From Thalassococcus sp. S3 (lineage in GTDB: Bacteria; Pseudomonadota; Alphaproteobacteria; Rhodobacterales; Rhodobacteraceae), in the NCBI RefSeq assembly GCF_004216475.1, contig NZ_CP022303.1:806001-870000 (forward strand): a stretch of 64,000 nt of DNA, written 5' to 3'. The notes below the pieces were generated by a model that did not search any database, had not been told where the DNA came from, and saw only the letters and a list, made by a program, of their open reading frames with translations. Made by a program: the position numbers and the translations under genes. Within the stretch, counting starts at the first letter, position 1, and each line of letters starts with the position of its first letter. Positions 30,700-42,739 of the stretch are shown here, piece by piece.

Positions 30700-32700
30700 T
30701 CAAAATGTCCTGGCGAGAGTGAGCTTGATATTGCGTCCCGCAGAGGGGCGCGTGGAGAGGCGAGGGGTGTAGGTTTTGTCAAAAACGTTCTCAATGCCAA
30801 GCCGAATTTCAGTGCCTTGAAGCACGCCGGTTTGTGGCACGTAGGTGGCGCGCAGATTGTGGACGCCAAATCCGGGAGACGGATCTTCGGTTGACAGAAC
30901 GTCATCGAACCGGGCCGCGGCGACCATCTCCCAGCTCAGATCCAGCTCTTCGCCGAACTTGCGGCCGACGGTCAGCCGGGCGGTATCGGCCGGAGTGTTG
31001 CCCCAAGGATAGAAGCCAAGGCCGGTATCAAAGGCCTCCCCGCGCGCGATGTTGGCGTTCAGGTCGATGTAAAACCCGCTTTGCATGGCGTAGGACAGCT
31101 CAAGCTCCAAGCCTTCGGTCGTTACTTCTTCGGGATTGTCGGTCATGCTGCCCGGGATCGTGTAAGACGTGATGTCCCAAAGATCGGTCGAATAGAGATT
31201 GGCCTTGAGCGCGAGCGCGTCGCCAGTGGCAAAAACGTCCGAACTGTCGAAAGACGCGCCGATCTCGTAGGTTCGGGCCTTTTCCGGCTGGGTCATGAAG
31301 TTGGCGTTGCCCAGATCGTCGATAATGGGAAGGTTCTCGGTATAGGCGGCGCTGGCGAAGACGGCGAAACCCGAAGGCCATTCGTAGCGCACGGCCAGGC
31401 CCCCCATCAAAGCGGAATTGTCGAAGGTCCCGCTATTGGGCGCGGTGGAGCCTTCGATTTCGGAGGTTTCGTATCGGACCGCGGGAGAAATCGTCAATCT
31501 TTCGCCGATCCTCATGTCGCTGACGGCGAATGCGGCAATGCGGTTGTCGGTGCCGCCAGGCGCTGCAAAGGCGTCAAGCCGCTCGCGCCGTATGAACTCG
31601 ATCCCGGTCCTCAAATCATGGCTGACGATTCCGGTTTCAAAGAGGCTGGTATTCTTGATTGAAAACGTGGTCGTCTCATAAAGATGATCGGCGTCGAGCA
31701 GCGGGGAGCCGGGTGTGACCGGCGTGTTGTTGATCTCTTCCTCGGCGTAGGTCAGCGCGACAGTCAGATCGAGCAGGTCGTTATCCTGCGGATTATAGTT
31801 GTAGCGCAGAGACGCCGTATTGTTGCGCGTGAACCGGTCCACATTGCCGAAATCAGCCAGGCCGAACGTGTCATAGGGCACGTCCCGCTGGTCGGATTCC
31901 GTTTCCTGGTAGCTGAAGGTGATGGATTGATCGTTGTTCTGACCAAAGGTGTATCTGCCTTTGATCAGCCAGGACGGGTCATCAATCTCACCCCCTTCCG
32001 GGTTGATATCATTTCCGTCGCCATCGGTTTGAACACCCAGATTTCGACGCGCATATTGCGCCAGGAATTCCAGGTTGGCCGTCGGTTGCCAGGCGAGGAT
32101 GGTGGAGCTTGCGATGCCGTCCCCATTCGACTGGAACTCGAAGGTCTGGCGCAGCGCGAACCCGATCTCCCCGCCGGTGATGTCTGATGCGTCCTTTGTT
32201 TCCAACCGGACCACGCCGCCCACGACGCCGGATCCGAATTCGAACGACCCGATGGTGCCGCGGCGCACCTCAAGCTCCTTGTAAAGAAACGGATCGGTGA
32301 AAAGCTGGTTGCCGATCCGGTACAATTCCTCACTGCCCCGCGTGGCGCCATCAATCTGGATCAGAACCTTCTGATCGGTCCCGAACGTGCCATTGGCACC
32401 GTAGCCCCTGATGTTGATGCCGGAGCCTTGCGCGGTTGCCCCGTTCACCAGGTTGACGCCGGGCACGGAATCGATCAGCTCGGCCACGGTTCCGGCCTGC
32501 CGATCCTCGATTTCGGTCTCATCGACAACGGTGACCGGAACGGCGGTGTCGGTCTGCACCTCCCGCTTGCTTTCGCCCAGAACGATCGTGCCCAGAAAGT
32601 CGCCGTTCTCCTCCTGTGCGGTCAACGGATTGGCATAGAACGGAATAACGCAGAGCGAGGCCCAGGCCACGGTCGCTCTGCCGGTACAATGAAAACGCAT
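30700..32700 (-). CDS. hmuR: TonB-dependent outer-membrane receptor, heme/hemoglobin type
   Basis: A 666-residue outer-membrane beta-barrel with signal peptide (to about residue 28), TonB box region GTIVLGES, plug domain (about 45-155: ETEIEDRQAGTVAELIDSVPGV, INIRGYG, LIQIDGA) and barrel ending in TLARTF with terminal Phe. The plug with the GTIGSFEFGSGVVGGVV block matches the heme/hemoglobin receptor group. It imports heme driven by TonB. It is divergent from hmuSTUV, and a candidate iron-responsive site lies at 32814-32828 in the shared upstream region. Ligand assignment rests on context. Confidence 0.9.
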   Translation of the reverse strand: MRFHCTGRATVAWASLCVIPFYANPLTAQEENGDFLGTIVLGESKREVQTDTAVPVTVVDETEIEDRQAGTVAELIDSVPGVNLVNGATAQGSGINIRGYGANGTFGTDQKVLIQIDGATRGSEELYRIGNQLFTDPFLYKELEVRRGTIGSFEFGSGVVGGVVRLETKDASDITGGEIGFALRQTFEFQSNGDGIASSTILAWQPTANLEFLAQYARRNLGVQTDGDGNDINPEGGEIDDPSWLIKGRYTFGQNNDQSITFSYQETESDQRDVPYDTFGLADFGNVDRFTRNNTASLRYNYNPQDNDLLDLTVALTYAEEEINNTPVTPGSPLLDADHLYETTTFSIKNTSLFETGIVSHDLRTGIEFIRRERLDAFAAPGGTDNRIAAFAVSDMRIGERLTISPAVRYETSEIEGSTAPNSGTFDNSALMGGLAVRYEWPSGFAVFASAAYTENLPIIDDLGNANFMTQPEKARTYEIGASFDSSDVFATGDALALKANLYSTDLWDITSYTIPGSMTDNPEEVTTEGLELELSYAMQSGFYIDLNANIARGEAFDTGLGFYPWGNTPADTARLTVGRKFGEELDLSWEMVAAARFDDVLSTEDPSPGFGVHNLRATYVPQTGVLQGTEIRLGIENVFDKTYTPRLSTRPSAGRNIKLTLARTF

Positions 32701-32813
32701 TCGGTCCCCTTACGCATTGGCGTGTGTTGCCGGAGCTTGCGCAGGGGCTGGCGTGGCGAATTTTTGGCAATTTGCAGAAAGTAAGCTTTCCACCTTGTTC
32801 TGTCTCGGAAAGA

Positions 32814-32828
32814 TGACTAAAATTGTCA
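32814..32828. promoter_or_regulatory. Candidate iron-responsive operator between hmuR and hmuS
   Basis: TGACTAAAATTGTCA is an imperfect inverted repeat (TGAC ... GTCA) in the A/T-rich divergent region. Similar sequences occur at 37476-37491 and 37582-37598 before the hemP cluster. The recurrence before iron genes suggests the same regulator, perhaps of the RirA/IscR-type Rhodobacterales iron network; this is inference. Confidence 0.45.
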
Positions 32829-32915
32829 AGTAAATTTAGCGCCGCCTGTGCGCTTCAGCCACGCCGTTTGATCGGCGCAGCCATCCGGACAAAAAACCCA
32901 TGTCGAGGTCGCCGA

Positions 32916-33977
32916 ATGGCAGAGCTATCCCTTCTTTCCCCTGAAGAAATCCGTATCGCCCAGCAGGAGAACGACAAATTGCGTGCGCGCGATTTGGCCA
33001 CCAAGCTGGGGCTTTCCGAAGCGCAGCTTGTGGCGGCCCAATGCGGGCTGCAGGCAACCCGAATCTCTGCCCATCCCGATCAGGTGATGGCTGCCGCGCA
33101 AACCCTGGGTGAGGTCATGGCACTGACCCGGAATGATGCCTGCGTGCATGAAAAAGTTGGATGCTACGACAATTATCACCCAGGCGCCCATGCCGCGATG
33201 GTTTTGACCGAAGAGATCGATCTGAGGATCTTTCCGTCCCATTGGCAGCACGCCTTCATGCTGGAGGCGGAGACCGAAAGTGGCACACGCCGCTCCATCC
33301 AGGTGTTCGATGCGGCGGGCGATGCGATCCACAAGATCTTTCTGAGAGAGGCGTCCCGGACATCCGGCTGGAACGCCACCCGGAGCGAGTTGGCCCTGGA
33401 TGATCAGTCGCAGACCCTGAACGTGGTCGAACGCAAACCGCCCGAGGCGCCCAAATCGGATCCCGGCAAGCTCGACATCCTTCAAAGGGAATGGCGCCGG
33501 ATGACGGACACGCACCAGTTTTTGCGGCTTGTGTCGAAGCTCAAGATGAACCGCCTGGGCGCGTACCGGATCGCCGGGGGGCCGTTCGTGCGTGAATTGG
33601 CGCCTGAAAGCATCGACACCCTCCTTCATGCTCTGGCCGAGCGCGCGCTCGACATCATGCTGTTCGTCGGCAACCGTGGCTGCATTCAGATCCACACCGG
33701 GCCGATCCACACATTGCGTCCCATGGGGCCGTGGCAGAACGTTATGGACCCCGGCTTTAACCTGCATCTGCGGCTCGACAAGATCGCGGAAGTCTGGGCC
33801 GTTGAAAAGCCGACGCAGCGTGGTCCGGCCGTGTCTGTCGAGGCGTTTGATGATCAGGGCGGGCTGATTTTCCAGATATTCGGGGTCGGCAAGGAGGGAC
33901 GGGACAGCCGTCCCGCCTGGGGCGAACTGGTAGAGACATTGCCGACGCGCGAGAGCGCGCAGGCGGTGCCCTCATGA
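32916..33977 (+). CDS. hmuS: Hemin-degrading factor / heme-trafficking protein HmuS
   Basis: A 353-residue cytoplasmic protein of the HemS/HmuS/ChuS type, which receives heme after import and transfers or degrades it. It has two similar halves: an N-terminal block (ALTRNDACVHEKVGCYDNY; FPSHWQHAFMLE) and a C-terminal block (VGNRGCIQIHTGPIHTLRPMG; MDPGFNLHLR). The GCIQIHTGP block carries the His region typical of the second repeat. The ATG at 32916 has a GAGG site; a longer in-frame start at 32823 runs into low-quality sequence. It is first of hmuSTUV, with ATGA overlap to hmuT. Confidence 0.94.
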   Translation: MAELSLLSPEEIRIAQQENDKLRARDLATKLGLSEAQLVAAQCGLQATRISAHPDQVMAAAQTLGEVMALTRNDACVHEKVGCYDNYHPGAHAAMVLTEEIDLRIFPSHWQHAFMLEAETESGTRRSIQVFDAAGDAIHKIFLREASRTSGWNATRSELALDDQSQTLNVVERKPPEAPKSDPGKLDILQREWRRMTDTHQFLRLVSKLKMNRLGAYRIAGGPFVRELAPESIDTLLHALAERALDIMLFVGNRGCIQIHTGPIHTLRPMGPWQNVMDPGFNLHLRLDKIAEVWAVEKPTQRGPAVSVEAFDDQGGLIFQIFGVGKEGRDSRPAWGELVETLPTRESAQAVPS

Positions 33978-35953: not shown

Positions 35954-36745
35954 ATGCTGGATGCGCAAGACATTTCCGTCACTTACGGTCGCAAAACCGT
36001 GCTCAACCATGTGTCGTTCCATGCCTTGGCGGGGCAGGTCACTGCCATCGTCGGTCCCAATGGCTCCGGCAAGTCGACCTTGATGAAGGCCATGACAGGG
36101 GATGTCCCCCATACCGGCCAGGTCACCCTGAACGGACGAGACGTGACCGACCTGACCCCGTGGGAGCTGGCCTCCATGCGTGGCGTGCTGCCGCAACAGG
36201 TGAGCCTTGCCTTCCCGTTCGTGGCGGAGGAGATCGTGCGGCTGGGGGCACGGGCGGGGCTGTCGGCGGCGGATCCCGGACTTCCGGCGGCCGCGCTCGC
36301 CGCGGTTGGCCTGCGTGGTTATGGAAGCCGGTACTATCAGGAACTGTCCGGGGGCGAGCAGCAGCGCGTTCAACTGGCACGCGTCCTTGCACAGGTCTGG
36401 GTGGCCGAGCGGGACGGGCAGCCAAGCTGGCTTTTTCTGGACGAACCTGTCTCCAGCCTCGATATCGGCCACCAGTTGGAAGTGATCGAGATTGCGCGGT
36501 CCTATGCATCGCGTGGCGGTGGTGTGGTTGCGGTGATGCATGACCTCAACCTGACCGCGATGTGCGCCGACCGCGTCTGCCTGATGAAGGACGGGCGTGT
36601 TCTGGCCGCTGGACCGGTTGGGGACGTCTTTCAGAACGGCCTGCTGTCAAAAGCCTATGACTGCCAGATCCTCACCAACACCGCGCCCCCGGATCCCTCG
36701 GGCCGGTATCTGCTGCCTCATATGTGCGCCCGGCGCGCGGGTTAA
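35954..36745 (+). CDS. hmuV: Heme ABC transporter ATP-binding protein
   Basis: A 263-residue ABC ATPase. Walker A GPNGSGKST (about 36-44), signature LSGGEQQR (about 135), Walker B WLFLDEPVSSLD (about 160-171) and switch His MHDLNLTA are intact. Insertion of VWVAERDGQPS before Walker B is usual for HmuV. The ATG at 35954 is two bases after the hmuU stop; a much longer frame upstream is a shadow of hmuU. Its stop overlaps the convergent gene 36742-37212 by four bases. Confidence 0.95.
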   Translation: MLDAQDISVTYGRKTVLNHVSFHALAGQVTAIVGPNGSGKSTLMKAMTGDVPHTGQVTLNGRDVTDLTPWELASMRGVLPQQVSLAFPFVAEEIVRLGARAGLSAADPGLPAAALAAVGLRGYGSRYYQELSGGEQQRVQLARVLAQVWVAERDGQPSWLFLDEPVSSLDIGHQLEVIEIARSYASRGGGVVAVMHDLNLTAMCADRVCLMKDGRVLAAGPVGDVFQNGLLSKAYDCQILTNTAPPDPSGRYLLPHMCARRAG

Positions 36746-37212
36746 GAGGGCGCGGCCCTGAGCGACGTGGCCAGCGCTTCGGCGGCGGTCAGGACACGGC
36801 CCACCTCCTGCCCTTCGCAAAGCAGCATGGCCGAAGAAAAGGCGCGGGATCTGTCGAGCGCGCGGCTGGCACGGATGGTATCGATCAGGTGTCGTTCGTC
36901 ATGTGTGACGATGTCAGCGCAACAGGTGCAGCGCGGGTTCGAAAAACGAAACGTGGATCGGCGCGACTGGCGCATTTCTTGAAGGACGATCAGCACCTGC
37001 CGCGTGAGAAGCGCTGCGTCCGGGCGTTGGAACATCGTTTCTGCTGACAGAATGGCGGTCAGCCAGCCCGCGCTTTGGGGCTCTGAGAAACTGAGAAAGA
37101 AAAACCGCGCCGTCGTCAGGACACTCATATCAAGCGCATCGAGAGGCAGGTCCTCAAGGAATCGGTCGCCGGGTTTAAGGACTTTCGTGGGATGTGTGGA
37201 AGGTGAGGGCAC
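36742..37212 (-). CDS. Protein of unknown function, member A of an iron-island paralog set
   Basis: A 156-residue soluble protein. The core reads RCTCCADIVTHDERHLIDTIRAS followed by a helical end. A Cys cluster (C-x-C-C) about residue 95 is followed by a (S/T)xDExx helix that resembles the proteins at 38006-38488 (CNCISLDEAVFARM) and 40695-41123 (SEVSFDEAWLMRL). All three lie inside the heme/iron island. No known domain is recognised and the similarity is short, so the link is inference. It converges on hmuV with overlapping stops. Confidence 0.65.
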   Translation of the reverse strand: MPSPSTHPTKVLKPGDRFLEDLPLDALDMSVLTTARFFFLSFSEPQSAGWLTAILSAETMFQRPDAALLTRQVLIVLQEMRQSRRSTFRFSNPRCTCCADIVTHDERHLIDTIRASRALDRSRAFSSAMLLCEGQEVGRVLTAAEALATSLRAAPS

Positions 37213-37671
37213 GTCGCATCTCCGGGTCTTGTGTTAAGCTGGGGTGGAGCCGTTTTGTGTTTGCTCTCCATGTCTTGAAGCGGGACGGCTGGCGTCAGGA
37301 TATCTTTCTCTCGCGGGCTGATCCCTCCGGCAGCGCGGTATGGAGCCCGAAGCGGAAAAAGCCTCGCTCTCGCGGATTTCATGCAAAGTCTTGAGATTTC
37401 ATCCCCCTGATCGACGCCAGCGTGAGTCGTTCATATCCACCGGGCGTGCGCTTTTGGCGGCTGGGTTCCTATTTCTGACAAAAATTATCGGATTAATGCA
37501 ACCCCCATCGCACAAGAAACGATCCGGATCGCGGCATTGCGCCAATGAATTACCCAAGTGAATTCGTCGGGATTGACAATCCTGAGTGATAAAGTCAGAT
37601 TTGTGGGAAGAGTCCTAGCCATCCCGTTCGGGCAGCCCGGAGCAGAGAAACCGAACCTGTCGGAGTGCGCC
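37213..37671. promoter_or_regulatory. Regulatory gap before the hemP cluster with two candidate iron boxes
   Basis: A 459-base gap. It holds TGACAAAAATTATCGG (37476-37491), close to TGACTAAAATTGTCA before hmuS, and CTGAGTGATAAAGTCAG (37582-37598), an inverted repeat with CTGA and TCAG ends next to a TTGACA (37573-37578) that could be a -35 element. A separate perfect palindrome CGATCCGGATCG is also present near 37520. No protein-like frame was seen in the gap. Confidence 0.45.
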
Positions 37672-37836
37672 ATGCCGCTGAACACCACAGAAACACGATC
37701 TGCGCCTGTTTACATGCCGCGCAGCCAGACGCCGCCCCCCTGTCGTTGCGAAGTGATGCAGTCGCTCATGACCGACGCACCATGCTGTGCGCCTGCGCTG
37801 GAACCAGTGCTTGACTACATCAGGGGGTCGGCATGA
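37672..37836 (+). CDS. Cys-rich microprotein before hemP
   Basis: A 54-residue protein, MPLNTTETRSAPVYMPRSQT at the start, with CRC and CC motifs (PPPCRCEVMQSLMTDAPCC) that could bind metal or heme. The ATG at 37672 has GGAG six bases upstream. Its TGA overlaps the hemP ATG (ATGA), so the two are coupled. The role is not known. The short length makes the call tentative, but the coupling and ribosome site support it. Confidence 0.55.
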   Translation: MPLNTTETRSAPVYMPRSQTPPPCRCEVMQSLMTDAPCCAPALEPVLDYIRGSA

Positions 37837-38009
37837 GCATTATGATACGCCCAATGGATCCTTCGAACATGCCCACTGCGGAAGACGCAATCCCGACATA
37901 CGATGCACGGGATCTGGTGGTGGACGGTGTGCAGGCGCGTCTTGTGCTGGACGGCCAGACCTACGTCTTGCGCATCACGCGTGCGGGCAAGTTGATCCTG
38001 ACCAAATGA
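37833..38009 (+). CDS. hemP: Hemin uptake protein HemP
   Basis: A 58-residue protein starting MSIMIRPMDPSNMPTAEDAI. The HemP family core is present: YDARDLVVDG, then the hydrophobic-basic end QTYVLRITRAGKLILTK, which is the standard C-terminus of HemP proteins. HemP is a small iron-controlled protein tied to heme import and iron regulation. It overlaps the Cys-rich microprotein upstream and the 38006 gene downstream, both by four bases, so three genes form one coupled unit. Confidence 0.93.
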   Translation: MSIMIRPMDPSNMPTAEDAIPTYDARDLVVDGVQARLVLDGQTYVLRITRAGKLILTK

Positions 38010-38488
38010 CCCCTAATGCCAATTCCGCCGGCGGCGCAACGGTTGGTCTGCTCAACCGCGTGCCGGATTGGGAAGCCGCGCTGATCTTGCATCTGCGTCT
38101 CTGGTGCGCCGGCCCTGAATGTCAGGCCAAGGTTTGGGACGGTTATGCCCAGGCGCTCCCGCGAGAGGAAGTACGCGATGCGATGCGGGCCTTTGACCAG
38201 CTCATCGGTCTGATATGGAGTTACGCACACCGACCGTTGATCCGTCACGCGCTGGATTGCAATTGCATCAGTCTGGACGAAGCGGTTTTCGCCCGCATGG
38301 TTCGCACCGCAACGGACGGCCCCATGCAGGATGCGCTGCTGATGGCAGCCTTGATCGTGCCACCCGGCTATGCCGAGGCCGTGGCGCAATTGGCCGGAAC
38401 CGTCGGAGCGACCGCCCGGCAGATCACTGCTCCGGATCGCACGTCATCGCCAAAGCATAAGGCAGGCAACGTCGTCTGGCTGCATTGA
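38006..38488 (+). CDS. Protein of unknown function, member B of an iron-island paralog set
   Basis: A 160-residue soluble protein. Near residue 90 it has DCNCISLDEAVFARMVRTAT followed by a helical end; this aligns with the core of the genes at 36742-37212 and 40695-41123. An earlier pair of Cys is in RLWCAGPECQAK. The ATG at 38006 overlaps the hemP stop (ATGA), with no strong ribosome site, as expected of a coupled gene. It lies 32 bases before imelysin. The function is unknown; location suggests iron or heme homeostasis. Confidence 0.75.
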   Translation: MTPNANSAGGATVGLLNRVPDWEAALILHLRLWCAGPECQAKVWDGYAQALPREEVRDAMRAFDQLIGLIWSYAHRPLIRHALDCNCISLDEAVFARMVRTATDGPMQDALLMAALIVPPGYAEAVAQLAGTVGATARQITAPDRTSSPKHKAGNVVWLH

Positions 38489-38520
38489 TCTCGGTTTCAA
38501 CGATCTGAAGGATATTCAAA

Positions 38521-39780
38521 ATGACATCCCGTTTCTCCGTTTTGCTCGCTACAGCGGCTTTGTCCGCCTCGCCCGCGTTTGCGGACAAGGCCGCCGTGCT
38601 GGGAACCTATGCCGATATCGCACAGGCCAAATATGAGGATAGTCTGATCTCGGCGCAGCGTCTGAAGGCGGCTGTTGACGCGCTTGTTTCAACCCCTTCC
38701 GCCGAGGCCCTGGAAACGGCCAAGGCGGCCTGGATCGCCGCGCGTGTGCCTTATCAGCAGTCCGAGGTTTATCGCTTCGGCAACGCGATTGTGGACGATT
38801 GGGAAGGCAAGGTGAACGCATGGCCGCTGGACGAGGGCCTGATTGACTATGTCGATGCTACATATGGCGGCGCGACTGACGAAAACCTCTATGCCGCATT
38901 GAACGTGGTGGCGACGCCGTCCTTCACATTGTCGGGCGCCGAAATCGATGCGAGCCAGATCACACCCGCCTTGCTGGAGGGGGATCTGCATGAGGCGGAT
39001 GAGGTCGAATCGAACGTCGCTACCGGGTATCACGCCATCGAATTTCTTTTGTGGGGGCAGGATCTGAACGGGTTCGGCCCCGGCGCGGGAAACCGGCCCT
39101 GGACCGATTTCGCGGCGGATGCGGCGTGTACGGGCGGCAATTGCGATCGCAGGGGCGCATATCTGGTTGCGGCAACCGATCTTCTGCTGTCCGATCTCGA
39201 ATGGATGACGGCCCAATGGGCTGAGGAGGGTGAGGCACGCGCCACGTTGATGGCCGACGAAGATGCGGGGCTTTCGGCCATCCTGACCGGCATGGGCTCG
39301 CTCAGCTATGGCGAACAGGCGGGCGAACGGATGAAGCTGGGCCTGATGCTCAACGATCCCGAAGAGGAGCATGACTGCTTCTCGGACAACACGCATAACA
39401 GCCATTTCTACGATGGCATGGGCATTCGCAACGTCTACCTCGGACGCTACACCCGCATTGACGGGACCGTGGTGAGCGGCCCGTCGCTGTCGTCGCTCGT
39501 GGCAGAGGCCGATCCGTCCGTAGATGCGGAGTTGAAGGCCAATCTCGATGCAACGATGTTCGAGCTGGGCGAGATCAAGACGGCGGCGGAGGCCGGTTTT
39601 GCCTATGACATGATGCTGGAGCGGGGCAACGAGGCGGGAGAAGCCCTGATCATGAGCGCGGTCGAAGCGTTGGTCACCCAGACCAGATCCATCGAGCGGG
39701 CCGTGGCCGCGCTGGGCGTGGACCGGATCGAATTTGAAGGGTCTGACAGTCTCGACAATCCCGACGCCGTCTTTCAGTGA
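38521..39780 (+). CDS. Imelysin-family iron-regulated periplasmic protein
   Basis: A 419-residue exported protein (signal MTSRFSVLLATAALSASPAFA). It is an imelysin/IrpA type: GYHAIE at residues 169-174 is the GxHxxE motif, part of the putative metal site. The second-half DNTHNSHFYDGMGIRNVYLG (about 290-310) is also typical. Imelysins are linked to iron uptake and may bind iron or heme in the periplasm; peptidase activity is doubtful. Context here (hemP upstream, a second imelysin plus di-heme oxidoreductase downstream) matches iron-regulated clusters of Pseudomonas. Confidence 0.93.
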   Translation: MTSRFSVLLATAALSASPAFADKAAVLGTYADIAQAKYEDSLISAQRLKAAVDALVSTPSAEALETAKAAWIAARVPYQQSEVYRFGNAIVDDWEGKVNAWPLDEGLIDYVDATYGGATDENLYAALNVVATPSFTLSGAEIDASQITPALLEGDLHEADEVESNVATGYHAIEFLLWGQDLNGFGPGAGNRPWTDFAADAACTGGNCDRRGAYLVAATDLLLSDLEWMTAQWAEEGEARATLMADEDAGLSAILTGMGSLSYGEQAGERMKLGLMLNDPEEEHDCFSDNTHNSHFYDGMGIRNVYLGRYTRIDGTVVSGPSLSSLVAEADPSVDAELKANLDATMFELGEIKTAAEAGFAYDMMLERGNEAGEALIMSAVEALVTQTRSIERAVAALGVDRIEFEGSDSLDNPDAVFQ

Positions 39781-39786
39781 AGAGAT

Positions 39787-39812
39787 GCGGTGCGGATGGA
39801 ATGCCGCACCGC
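39787..39812 (+). terminator. Hairpin after imelysin
   Basis: GCGGTGCGG, an 8-base loop and CCGCACCGC form a perfect 9-base stem starting six bases after the imelysin stop. There is no T run, so termination may need Rho, or the hairpin protects the transcript end. Confidence 0.5.
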
Positions 39813-39872
39813 GTTGATCCACCCGCGGTGCCCCCCAATATCAATCCCAGCCTTCTTTGAGCCAGGACCGAC

Positions 39873-40124
39873 ATGCCGAAAACGCCCAGCCCCTGTATCG
39901 ACGTCTGCAAGTTCAAACGCCAAGGTCATTGTATCGGTTGTTCGATGACCAAACAGCAAAAGTCGATGTTCAAATCCCTGAAAAAGGAACAGCATCGCAC
40001 GGCGTTCGTTGCGATGCTGGTGGCCCAGCAGGAGAAGCTGGGCAAGTATCGGGCTTGGCCGCCCGCCTATGCGCGCAAATGTGCGAAGAAAGGCGTCAAA
40101 ACGCCAACCTGCGCGTCAGCGTAG
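39873..40124 (+). CDS. DUF1289 protein
   Basis: An 83-residue basic protein. SPCIDVCKFKRQGHCIGCSM carries the DUF1289 cysteine set (C-x3-C, then C-x2-C), which resembles a small zinc or Fe-S binding site. The C-terminus is Lys/Ala-rich with two further Cys. The function of DUF1289 is unknown. It overlaps the convergent dps stop by nine bases. It is downstream of imelysin, separated by a hairpin. Confidence 0.88.
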   Translation: MPKTPSPCIDVCKFKRQGHCIGCSMTKQQKSMFKSLKKEQHRTAFVAMLVAQQEKLGKYRAWPPAYARKCAKKGVKTPTCASA

Positions 40125-40586
40125 ATGGGCCCGGAGCATCCACGCGAATTTCTCGTGGACCTGACCGCGCGCAATGCACAGATCTTCCGTCAGCGTGTCG
40201 CCATGACCGGCCGCCATCTCACCACAGCCCGCAACGGTTTGCGCCAGAGTTTCCTGCGCTGACAGCATCAGCTTGATCATCGTCTTGTCGTCGGCGTGCC
40301 CGTCATGCTCCTCCACCTTGGAGCGTTTGACCATGCCTGCAAGCGTGCCTTCGGCGTGCCCGTCCAGAGCCTTGACCCGTTCAGCAAGATCATCCTGCGC
40401 TTCGAAGTGATCTTCATAGATCTCCTGAAAGAGCGCGTGAAGCGGGCCAAACGACATGCCGACGACATTCCAGTGGAAATTCTGCGCAAGCATGGTCGTC
40501 ACCGCTGTTTCCGCAACGGATTGGTTCAAAGCATCGACAATGGCGGTCTGAGCGTCGCTGGCGAGCGCGGTGGCAGTCTGAGTCAT
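40116..40586 (-). CDS. dps: Dps-family ferritin-like protein
   Basis: A 156-residue four-helix protein of the Dps family, which stores iron and protects DNA from Fenton damage. AQNFHWNVVGMSFGPLHALFQEIYEDH (about 33-59) contains the ferroxidase residues: His in FHWN, and the Asp/Glu in EIYEDHFEAQDDLAER. The ATG at 40586 has AAGGGA upstream; a 30-codon extension is not family-like. A close match to an Irr/ICE box (40683-40699) lies about 100 bases upstream, fitting iron control. Confidence 0.92.
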   Translation of the reverse strand: MTQTATALASDAQTAIVDALNQSVAETAVTTMLAQNFHWNVVGMSFGPLHALFQEIYEDHFEAQDDLAERVKALDGHAEGTLAGMVKRSKVEEHDGHADDKTMIKLMLSAQETLAQTVAGCGEMAAGHGDTLTEDLCIARGQVHEKFAWMLRAHLR

Positions 40587-40682
40587 GGCTAATCCCTTCG
40601 CATACGAAATCAGCGCTGGCTTGCGATGTGCTGGCTGGCTGTGACCATCACATATAGCAGCCGCGCCAAAAGCCAAGGGCTT

Positions 40683-40699
40683 TTTATAATTATTCTAAA
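40683..40699. promoter_or_regulatory. Candidate Irr box (ICE) upstream of dps
   Basis: TTTATAATTATTCTAAA is a 17-base palindrome with a single mismatch (left TTTATAAT, centre T, right ATTCTAAA), very close to the iron control element recalled as TTTAGAAT-n-ATTCTAAA that Irr binds in alphaproteobacteria. It starts 97 bases upstream of the dps ATG and overlaps the last codons of the 40695-41123 gene. Confidence 0.65.
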
Positions 40700-41123
40700 T
40701 CTGACGAAACTGATCGGAAACCGAATGCGCCAGAAAGGCCAGATTGCGGCGGTGAACCTTGGGCACGCGTGAGCAGATCAGGAATGCGGCGCTTGCTGTG
40801 TCGTCGCCCTGAAACGCGGCGACGAGGCGCATCAGCCAGGCTTCGTCGAACGACACTTCGGACACCCCCGGACGGAAGAAAAGTGGCGGATTGTCAAGCG
40901 CTTGGCCCAGGCATCGGATCAGCGCCTCGGCATAGGCATCGCGGGCTTGACCCTTGTCTGAAGACAAGAGGGCACAGGCTTCGAACAGGTCGGCGCGCGC
41001 CGCGCAGCGACAGCCAAGGGCCGTCAGTCTGAGGTGATTCAGCAAAGGTAGAAGCGACGCGGCCACGGGGATGGGTTCGGCATTTGCCGGGCCGTCTTGT
41101 AAGGGCAATCGTAGTGGCACCAT
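40695..41123 (-). CDS. Protein of unknown function, member C of an iron-island paralog set
   Basis: A 142-residue soluble, helical protein. FFRPGVSEVSFDEAWLMRLV (about 82-101) resembles the cores of the 36742 and 38006 genes, though here the Cys before the SxDE helix are replaced by PGVSE. An upstream pair LGCRCAARADLF keeps a C-x-C. The ribosome site is weak. It is upstream of dps on the same strand, and divergent from the di-heme oxidoreductase. The function is unknown. Confidence 0.7.
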   Translation of the reverse strand: MVPLRLPLQDGPANAEPIPVAASLLPLLNHLRLTALGCRCAARADLFEACALLSSDKGQARDAYAEALIRCLGQALDNPPLFFRPGVSEVSFDEAWLMRLVAAFQGDDTASAAFLICSRVPKVHRRNLAFLAHSVSDQFRQI

Positions 41124-41224
41124 GTCACGCGTCCGCTTTGTGATCGGTGCGAGTTTGGACTCGCGACCCGTTATTCCTGAGTATATTTATAGGATATTGA
41201 TCGAAAATCAAAGGCGAGTCGGCC

Positions 41225-42739
41225 ATGAAACGCGTCGTTCTTTCATCTCTGCTGCTTCTTGCCGCGCCCGCAGCCGCGCTGGAGACCGGCGACGCATATC
41301 TTGGACCGATGGAGCGGACACAGGATGAAGCGGCCCGCATCGCGGATGTGACCCGTCCCACGGATGATTTTTCGGCGCCGGAGCGTTTTGAGACACATCC
41401 CGCCGGGGCCGCTACCGTCCGGGCCAGCCGGACGTCAGACGCCTTTTCCCGCCCGTCGGCCAATTTGAGTTTCGAACAGGAGCTCGACTTCAAGGTCGGC
41501 AATGGCCTCTTCAAAAAGCTCTGGGTCAGTGCCCCGGCTTCCACGCTGGCCTCCGACGGTTTGGGACCTCTTTATAACGCGCGATCCTGCCAGCGCTGTC
41601 ATCTGAAGGACGGGCGCGGTCATCCCCCGGAAGGGCCGGAGGACACCGCAGTTTCCATGTTTCTGCGTGTCTCGATCCCCGGCGGGCCGGAAGATGAGAT
41701 TGCCGAGATCGCCGACTACATCGCGACCAAACCCGATCCGGTTTACGGCACCCAGCTGCAGGATTTCGGCATCGCCGGACATGCCGGAGAGTACCGGTTG
41801 CAGATCGACTATGAAGAGATCGAGGTTGAACTTTCGGACGGAGAGGTCGTCTCTCTGCGCAAGCCAACCTATACGGCGACAGATCTGGGATATGGCGCCC
41901 TGCATCCCGACGCCATGCTCAGCCCCCGTGTTGCGCCGCAAATGATCGGGCTGGGGCTGCTGGAGGCCATTCCGGCCGCCGACATCCTGGCCCAGGCAGA
42001 TCCCGATGATGCGGATGGCGATGGCATCTCGGGCCGGGCCAATATCGTCTGGTCGGCGGAGTTTGACCGCCCGATGCTGGGCCGCTTCGGGCTGAAGGCC
42101 GGTGCGCCTACGGTCAAGGAACAATCGGCGGGTGCTTTTGCCGGGGATATGGGCCTGTCCTCGACGCTTCACCCCCATGGGTGGGGGGAATGCACGCAAG
42201 CACAGACGGATTGCCGCGCCGCGCCGGATGGCAACACGCCCGATCAAGGAGATGTCGAGGTCTCGGCCGAGGCGCTTGAACTCGTCACCTTCTACGCCGC
42301 CAATCTGGCGGTGCCCGCCCGCCGCGATATCGACGATCCAAAGGTTCTGCGCGGCAAAGAGGTCTTTTATCAGGCCGGGTGCATTGCCTGCCACACGCCA
42401 AAATTCGTGACCCACCGCATGGAGGGACGGCCCGAGCATTCCTTTCAGTTGATATGGCCTTATTCGGACCTTTTGTTGCACGACATGGGCGAGGGGCTTG
42501 CGGACAATCGACCCGAGGCCCGGGCCAATGGCCGGGAATGGCGCACGCCGCCTCTTTGGGGCATCGGTCTGACGCGCCAGGTCAGCGGTCATACCTATTT
42601 CCTCCATGATGGGCGGGCGCGCTCGCTGCTGGAGGCGGTTTTGTGGCATGGAGGTGAGGCGCAGGCGGCGCGCGACCGGGTCGTGTCGATGCCCAAGCCC
42701 GATCGCGACGCCCTTATCCGGTTTCTAGAGAGCCTGTGA
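41225..42739 (+). CDS. Di-heme oxidoreductase-family protein (DHOR)
   Basis: A 504-residue exported protein (signal to about residue 19) with two c-type heme sites: C122-x2-C125-H126 in SCQRCHLKDG and C386-x2-C389-H390 in GCIACHTPKF. The family has been called thiol oxidoreductase without proof. The conserved DPDDADGDGISGRAN (about 260-274) looks like a calcium-binding loop. It is followed by imelysin and DUF1513 genes; the same set (imelysin, DHOR, imelysin, DUF1513) occurs in Pseudomonas (PA4370-PA4373, from memory). It likely carries electrons in a periplasmic iron-handling system. Confidence 0.92.
   Translation: MKRVVLSSLLLLAAPAAALETGDAYLGPMERTQDEAARIADVTRPTDDFSAPERFETHPAGAATVRASRTSDAFSRPSANLSFEQELDFKVGNGLFKKLWVSAPASTLASDGLGPLYNARSCQRCHLKDGRGHPPEGPEDTAVSMFLRVSIPGGPEDEIAEIADYIATKPDPVYGTQLQDFGIAGHAGEYRLQIDYEEIEVELSDGEVVSLRKPTYTATDLGYGALHPDAMLSPRVAPQMIGLGLLEAIPAADILAQADPDDADGDGISGRANIVWSAEFDRPMLGRFGLKAGAPTVKEQSAGAFAGDMGLSSTLHPHGWGECTQAQTDCRAAPDGNTPDQGDVEVSAEALELVTFYAANLAVPARRDIDDPKVLRGKEVFYQAGCIACHTPKFVTHRMEGRPEHSFQLIWPYSDLLLHDMGEGLADNRPEARANGREWRTPPLWGIGLTRQVSGHTYFLHDGRARSLLEAVLWHGGEAQAARDRVVSMPKPDRDALIRFLESL

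Follow-up and report, generated by a model that had tools for sequence, protein, structure and literature searches.

A described system close to the locus considered here is the operon hemP-irpA-bfd-bfr-RSP_1545-1543 of Rhodobacter sphaeroides. According to the accessible part of one report, this operon is under IscR control, and IscR binds a 19-bp Iron-Rhodo-box of Rhodobacteraceae upstream of hemP (PMC4618611). In the available portion of a second report, iron limitation raises expression in the wild type 5.2-fold (hemP), 4.1-fold (irpA), 2.7-fold (bfd) and 2.0-fold (bfr), and the corresponding values for an irr mutant are 34.7-, 19.7-, 12.3- and 4.5-fold (PMC3413700). In air, hemP, irpA and bfd are induced in a manner dependent on OxyR, as stated in the part of a third report that could be consulted (PMC4176601). 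A similar gene order is present in Thalassococcus sp. S3 (contig NZ_CP022303.1, positions 806,001 to 870,000; this whole 64-kb stretch is called the window, and all coordinates refer to it). The window order hemP-...-imelysin A-...-di-heme oxidoreductase (DHOR)-imelysin B-DUF1513 resembles the R. sphaeroides operon as far as the accessible text describes it (PMC4618611), with RSP_1544 and RSP_1543 equated with imelysin B and DUF1513 from gene order. In contrast to R. sphaeroides, the window carries an additional gene, B, between hemP and imelysin A, and has DUF1289, dps and a gene C at the position of bfd-bfr. B, C and a third gene, A, are the subject of this report.

A, B and C had been singled out from the sequence as three distant paralogs of 142-160 residues in one iron island. 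Open reading frames (ORFs) of 156, 160 and 142 aa are indeed open at these places:

36742..37212, minus strand: paralog A, 156 aa; CTCC motif (CxxC within the A family) and invariant Cys132; convergent with hmuV
38006..38488, plus strand: paralog B, 160 aa; H-x3-C-x-C motif and C-terminal Leu-His; ATGA overlap with hemP
40695..41123, minus strand: paralog C, 142 aa; RPG-SFDE in place of the motif Cys, other conserved Cys; directly upstream of dps

Homology and spread of the superfamily

When single sequences were compared with shuffled controls, B and C were clearly similar (Smith-Waterman score 67 versus a shuffle mean of 29, reached by 1 of 1000 shuffles); no clear similarity was found for A-B or A-C. 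Protein searches yielded 23 matches for A and 70 for C, the query itself counted, and only B itself for B. The B family comprises 30 sequences from a B search of whole genomes (35 of 147 genomes matched; 30 of 39 matches, the rest being without locus). In profile-profile comparison, B bridges the other two: B- and C-family profiles align in register over 101 columns (P 0.0016) and B- and A-family profiles over 127 columns (P 0.0021), whereas the direct A-C alignment is weak (22 columns, P 0.007). hhalign's own probabilities for the B-C and B-A alignments are low (16% and 13%).

The decisive test used a profile of 28 B relatives collected class-wide, 27 from other families and one from the window's own taxonomic family, presumably Rhodobacteraceae, without any A- or C-family member; L051 and matches without locus were left out. 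Run on 1630 sequences with a cut-off of E<0.01, it matches 67 of the 69 C-family sequences, 21 of the 22 A-family sequences and none of 950 shuffled ones. Window A, B and C themselves are matched as well, together with one DUF6628 protein, and among 585 window frames three match, the two listed being the stop-to-stop frames of B and C. Because the profile recovers the A and C families without a single shuffled sequence, their homology is well established, and A, B and C are true distant paralogs of one superfamily, as the original prediction had it.

The family proves to be far wider than three genes: judged by profile matches it is class-wide, and one of its branches already bears the name DUF6628. 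Members were found in 58 of 230 alphaproteobacterial genomes (E<=1e-4), and a class-level search with the B profile gave matches in 31 of 240 genomes. In a sample of the phylum, 30 of 299 genomes contain a member; 29 of them belong to Alphaproteobacteria, and the one match outside is weak (E 4.8e-4). The genome of the window (5.0 Mb, 4 contigs) encodes, at E<=1, exactly three members, all inside the island. Elsewhere, superfamily genes repeatedly occur in pairs, arranged in tandem, divergently or convergently (loci L136, L176, L138, L198, L079, L089, L084 and L185).

Conserved residues and predicted structures

The core proposed for the three proteins, (Cys or PG)-x-(S/T)-x-DE-helix, turned out to be real. 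Across 144 distinct members, the Glu is present in all 144, the Asp in 129 and an Arg of helix 1 in 141, the remaining three being gaps. A Cys occupies one column of the motif in 94 of the 144. The B alignments show almost no variation at the His, at the Cys-x-Cys or at an aligned terminal His. The last residue is His in 26 of the first set of 30 B sequences and Asn in the other four, and it is His in all 80 titled B loci (the 80 best among 369, mostly from the Roseobacter group, with few exceptions, and often from Ruegeria). This C-terminal His follows a linker of variable length. Superfamily-wide, motif Cys and C-terminal His are associated: 66 of the 144 members have both, 39 only the Cys, 37 neither and two only the His.

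In a quick tree on few columns, which does not resolve the deep forks, A, B and C fall into three separate clades of rows from the window's family (C, 18 rows, 99*; A, 12 rows, 99*; B, 39 rows, 95*). Differing predicted folds had been named as one outcome that would refute the proposal; for A and C this outcome did not arise. The models of A (predicted local distance difference test score, pLDDT, 88.9; predicted template modelling score, pTM, 0.84) and C (pLDDT 82.8, pTM 0.72) show the same order: a long helix, a short helix, a long helix, the motif loop and three helices, with one additional five-residue helix in A. This comparison covers the order of elements in two modelled members. Among solved structures, a sequence search gave no match (best E 0.3), and fold searches with the A and C models did not match a known fold.

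Relation to described families

No Pfam match was found for the products of A, B or C at E<=1; in NCBIfam there was none for A or B, and C gave a sub-threshold chance match (E 0.18). The one branch for which a name was found is DUF6628 (PF20333). A DUF6628 protein (L031) is matched by the 28-relative profile at E 1.2e-9, and the Cys-Cys and Glu motif is common to DUF6628 and the superfamily. For A, B and C, in contrast, the Pfam model (cut-off 27 bits) gave no match at E<=1, and 3 of 23 A-family proteins match it weakly (best E 0.0082). On these profile matches, A/B/C and DUF6628 are assigned to the same superfamily and to different Pfam families. A search of a literature collection found no publication naming DUF6628 and, among titles and abstract beginnings, no description of the A/B/C family. 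What is new is the protein family, since a name was found only for the DUF6628 branch and the fold searches gave no known match; the chemistry of the family may still prove familiar.

Bfd is likewise a small Cys-bearing protein whose gene lies beside that of bacterioferritin in iron-regulated operons, and superfamily genes adjoin bfd and bfr in several families. However, Pfam shows no sequence relation, and the models of A and C are helical. BFD-like domains are marked by four Cys; no Pfam match to such a domain was found for A, B, C or their families. Since Bfd and superfamily genes co-occur, the superfamily is not a simple replacement of Bfd. HemP/HmuP (PF10636) shares an operon, an iron-box-like promoter and translational coupling with B, whereas B is a separate protein of about 160 aa. 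The PF10636 domain was not found in A, B or C, hemP being a gene of its own adjoining B. Nor was a Ferritin domain (Dps/Bfr) found in the three; the Ferritin match falls on the neighbouring dps.

Genomic neighbourhood

The start of B overlaps the end of hemP by 4 bp (ATGA, 38006-38009), and A and hmuV converge with ends overlapping by 4 bp, so that the proposed coupling of one paralog to hemP and the convergence of another on hmuV both hold. Among 120 genomes of the window's family, 82 members were found in 55 genomes and 74 hemP genes above the cut-off in 68. Window B is one of 25 members that immediately follow hemP in the same orientation (profile-hit gap <=42 bp), and window A and C are among 12 further members within 5 kb of hemP. 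Both genes occur in 46 genomes, a member alone in 9, hemP alone in 22 and neither in 43 (odds ratio 10, p 4e-8, kinship ignored). In the titled B loci, hemP is directly upstream of B in 78 of 80; if B is assumed to begin at the start codon closest to the end of hemP, the two genes overlap by 4 bp in 75. Imelysin A is present within 4 kb in 25 of the 80 and bacterioferritin in 14.

Further context comes from 60 loci picked by hand from 79 non-window members of the window's family; they hold 66 members. Counting the window, 16 of the 18 C-clade rows immediately precede dps, the exceptions being L084 and L094. A gene for a DUF1289 protein is often found next to C and dps (in the window 39873-40124; DUF1289 in 14 loci of the neighbour clustering). 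Rows of the A clade occupy 10 places. Three are beside hmu genes (window, L091, L101), L098 is beside imelysin/DHOR genes, and L092 is near imelysin/DHOR genes and an HmuU-like permease; at L087, L089, L097, L100 and L104, none of the queried neighbour genes was found. Several B-like members lack hemP and the queried iron neighbours, yet have an iron-box-like site. A branch without the Cys motif (L085, L090, L096, L099) lies near what are presumably rlmN- and asparaginase-like genes, not iron genes; an iron-box-like site is upstream in three of the four (L085, L096, L099).

Outside the window's family, 70 loci were considered, some of which share a genome or genus and are partly non-independent. 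A queried iron gene (Bfr, Bfd, TonB receptor, PiuC, hemP or HmuS) lies within 1.2 kb in 14 of them. Bfr or Bfd is found within 0.8 kb in nine (L125, L139, L154, L180, L181, L182, L188, L197, L198) and at 2.4 to 7 kb in four more (L171, L189, L190, L192); Bfr/Bfd matches therefore cluster at the gene. L144 is 1.1 kb from HmuS, L150 1.0 kb from hemP and L133 0.5 kb from a TonB receptor gene. L140 and L153 are each 1.1 kb from a gene that we take to encode a PiuC-like dioxygenase, and adjoin a transporter. L133 and L182 form one island (G180 contig 68), in which two members surround the TonB receptor gene, hemP, hmuSTUV, bfr and bfd. The clade of L133, L140 and L153 adjoins a conserved transporter, presumably of the major facilitator superfamily, which might be a further iron-related transporter.

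Iron-box-like elements

Searched for a palindromic motif, the sequences upstream of hemP in 27 related loci and in the window yielded nCTGACTAAnTTAGTCAGn. It fits the Iron-Rhodo-box. A matrix built from 23 of the 27 hemP-upstream sites, window excluded, was used to scan the window. Its three strongest sites in the 64 kb flank A, hemP-B and C, and the fourth and fifth best are in the receptor/hmuS and dps promoter regions:

37474..37492, unstranded: iron-box-like 19-bp palindrome TCTGACAAAAATTATCGGA, 24.2 bits, best site of the window; between A and hemP
37581..37599, unstranded: iron-box-like palindrome CCTGAGTGATAAAGTCAGA, 20.7 bits; upstream of ORF54-hemP-B
41176..41194, unstranded: iron-box-like palindrome CCTGAGTATATTTATAGGA, 20.9 bits; between C and the di-heme oxidoreductase gene, upstream of C
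32812..32830, unstranded: weaker iron-box-like site, 14.8 bits; between the TonB receptor gene and hmuS
40700..40718, unstranded: weaker iron-box-like site, 13.3 bits; dps promoter region, inside the 3' end of C
40682..40700, unstranded: AT-rich element resembling an iron control element (ICE); dps promoter region, overlaps the C stop; 11.6 bits with the iron-box matrix

When the window was resampled 20 times with a first-order model and scored with a matrix that still contained its hemP site, sites of at least 15 bits numbered 0.2 on average versus three observed, and the top resampled score was 19.8. Within 250 bp upstream, 31 of the 66 members of the window's family have a site of at least 12 bits, compared to 2.0% of random 250-bp pieces; one of the 31 (L118) is a hemP site also used in building the matrix. 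At 15 bits or more, the figures are 26 of 66 versus 1.6% of random pieces of the same loci. The suspected iron link is supported by a recurrent iron-gene neighbourhood, to which the window's family adds iron-box-like sites at its promoters.

C had been placed at an ICE box by dps. It does adjoin dps on the upstream side; the ICE-like element, labelled by what we take to be the ICE consensus, overlaps the stop of C and belongs to the dps promoter. There, the iron-box-like (40700-40718) and the ICE-like element (40682-40700) touch, and double control of the dps promoter region by IscR-type and Irr-type regulators is possible.

Other genes of the island

The island begins with the TonB receptor gene (minus strand), followed by hmuS-hmuT-hmuU-hmuV (plus), A (minus) and a small ORF-hemP-B-imelysin A-DUF1289 (plus). 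Onward from DUF1289, it continues with dps and C (both minus) and di-heme oxidoreductase-imelysin B-DUF1513 (plus). The labels hmuT, hmuU, hmuV, TonB receptor and DUF1513-like are presumed ones.

30700..32700, minus strand: presumed TonB-dependent receptor, open frame
32907..33977, plus strand: hmuS (start assumed), PF05171
33974..35951, plus strand: presumed hmuT and hmuU, open frames
35954..36745, plus strand: presumed hmuV ABC ATPase, open frame; convergent with A
37672..37836, plus strand: small ORF, 54 aa (ORF54); ends on the hemP start (ATGA overlap)
37833..38009, plus strand: hemP, 58 aa; assigned by sequence and a PF10636 match at this place in its own genome
38521..39780, plus strand: imelysin A (irpA-like), PF09375; downstream of B
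39873..40124, plus strand: DUF1289 protein, PF06945; convergent with dps
40116..40586, minus strand: dps, Ferritin domain, E 3.2e-19; start chosen by eye
41225..42739, plus strand: di-heme oxidoreductase, PF06537
42736..43704, plus strand: imelysin B, PF09375
43673..44770, plus strand: presumed DUF1513-like protein, last gene of the imelysin-DHOR group; relatives in the same order

Of 22 related loci inspected by eye, 13 have an ORF of about 44-75 aa that separates the iron box from hemP; those named as carrying an ORF upstream of hemP are the window, L245, L251-L253, L255, L257, L267, L269, L274, L275, L281, L121 and L117. A C-terminal pattern of approximately (E/x)W(h)(h)D(x)hE, again judged by eye, recurs in these pre-hemP ORFs. 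A clear relative of the 54-aa ORF of the window was not found by tblastn. The pre-hemP ORF is possibly a new small protein or a leader peptide of the hemP operon.

Possible functions of A, B and C

We tentatively favour, with a probability of about 0.4, cytosolic carrier or partner proteins for iron/heme or Fe-S units, with putative binding, that link uptake to ferritin-type storage. In this view the alphaproteobacterial superfamily consists of small, helical, soluble proteins, probably produced under iron control, of which A, B and C are three specialised forms. The Cys pair, together with the His and a folded-back C-terminal His, might bind a heme, a small Fe-S unit or an iron atom, and iron or electrons might be passed by the protein between incoming heme/iron and ferritin-type stores. 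The C branch, having lost Cys motif and tail, would retain only the partner-binding part and serve Dps. The evidence bears on when A, B and C are probably produced and on their probable partners rather than on their chemistry. A more detailed version, in which iron-regulated carriers, with Cys-x-Cys and a flexible C-terminal His as a clamp for iron, heme or an Fe-S unit, form a chaperone layer between uptake and ferritins and each paralog serves a route of its own (A the import of heme, B import by HemP/imelysin, C storage in Dps), is unlikely to hold in full.

Several observations weigh against such a carrier role. In the window's family, 45 of 82 members are away from hemP. At the class level, 56 of 70 loci lack a queried iron gene within 1.2 kb, and an iron-box-like site was found upstream of none of 75 genes. 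Structure searches with the A and C models gave no backing for a binding site. Even B-branch proteins do not all end in His (32 of 39 B-clade rows do), and the Cys motif is missing in nearly all of the C branch and in several other branches; metal binding at that site therefore cannot be the universal function. An ancestry-aware test of Cys and C-terminal His yielded seven independent pairs, of which on average 2.5 point the same way and none the opposite way, the rest showing no difference (median p 0.25); as counted on this tree, the pairs are too few to prove a coupling of the two features.

The nearest rival holds that the proteins are cofactor-free adaptors of ferritins, transporters or HemP: the Arg/Asp-Glu core and the linker with a C-terminal [LIV]-His would be a docking module for Dps, Bfr or HemP that tunes storage or release, and the Cys would be structural (zinc or disulfide). 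It accommodates Arg and Asp-Glu as the only features common to nearly all members, the tie of the C branch to dps though that branch is mostly without Cys motif, and the variable-length linker before the C-terminal His; the conservation of His and Cys-x-Cys in the B branch, however, exceeds what a docking surface needs, and we regard adaptors as rather unlikely. HmuP/HemP has been reported as co-regulator-like in other bacteria. With B translationally coupled to hemP, and regulators often located in the operons they control, the superfamily might comprise co-regulators that respond to iron or heme and adjust the activity of a transcription factor. Yet neither Pfam nor NCBIfam revealed a DNA-binding domain, with a sub-significant helix-turn-helix match in one of 30 B-family members (E 0.093), and one gene per store or uptake system is better explained by a local partner; we consider co-regulation improbable. 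The hallmark of AhpD is a CMD domain with a CxxCxxxH-type site. Thiol-redox or peroxide-defence proteins of this kind, guarding an iron-loaded compartment, are a further reading, which we regard as highly improbable. In its favour, AhpD chains are among the structural matches of both A and C models, at insignificant scores; a Pfam CMD match was not found. The OxyR dependence of hemP, irpA and bfd induction in air would suit them, as far as the available part of that report goes (PMC4176601).

The proposal of a new iron/heme-handling family stands in so far as the three proteins form one family with a recurrent link to iron genes; it has to be amended in that this family is class-wide and not wholly unnamed. 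Iron or heme binding is putative, as are the different metal or heme loads suggested for the different Cys patterns. To our knowledge, little is known about how iron moves in the bacterial cytosol from import to ferritin-type stores. Being present in 58 of 230 genomes, preceded by an iron-box-like element in the best-sampled family and often located beside hemP, imelysin, dps or bfr genes, the superfamily is a direct candidate for this import-to-storage step and is accessible to tests on single genes. Alphaproteobacterial iron handling probably includes it as a part so far overlooked, and, if this is true, DUF6628 would gain a function.

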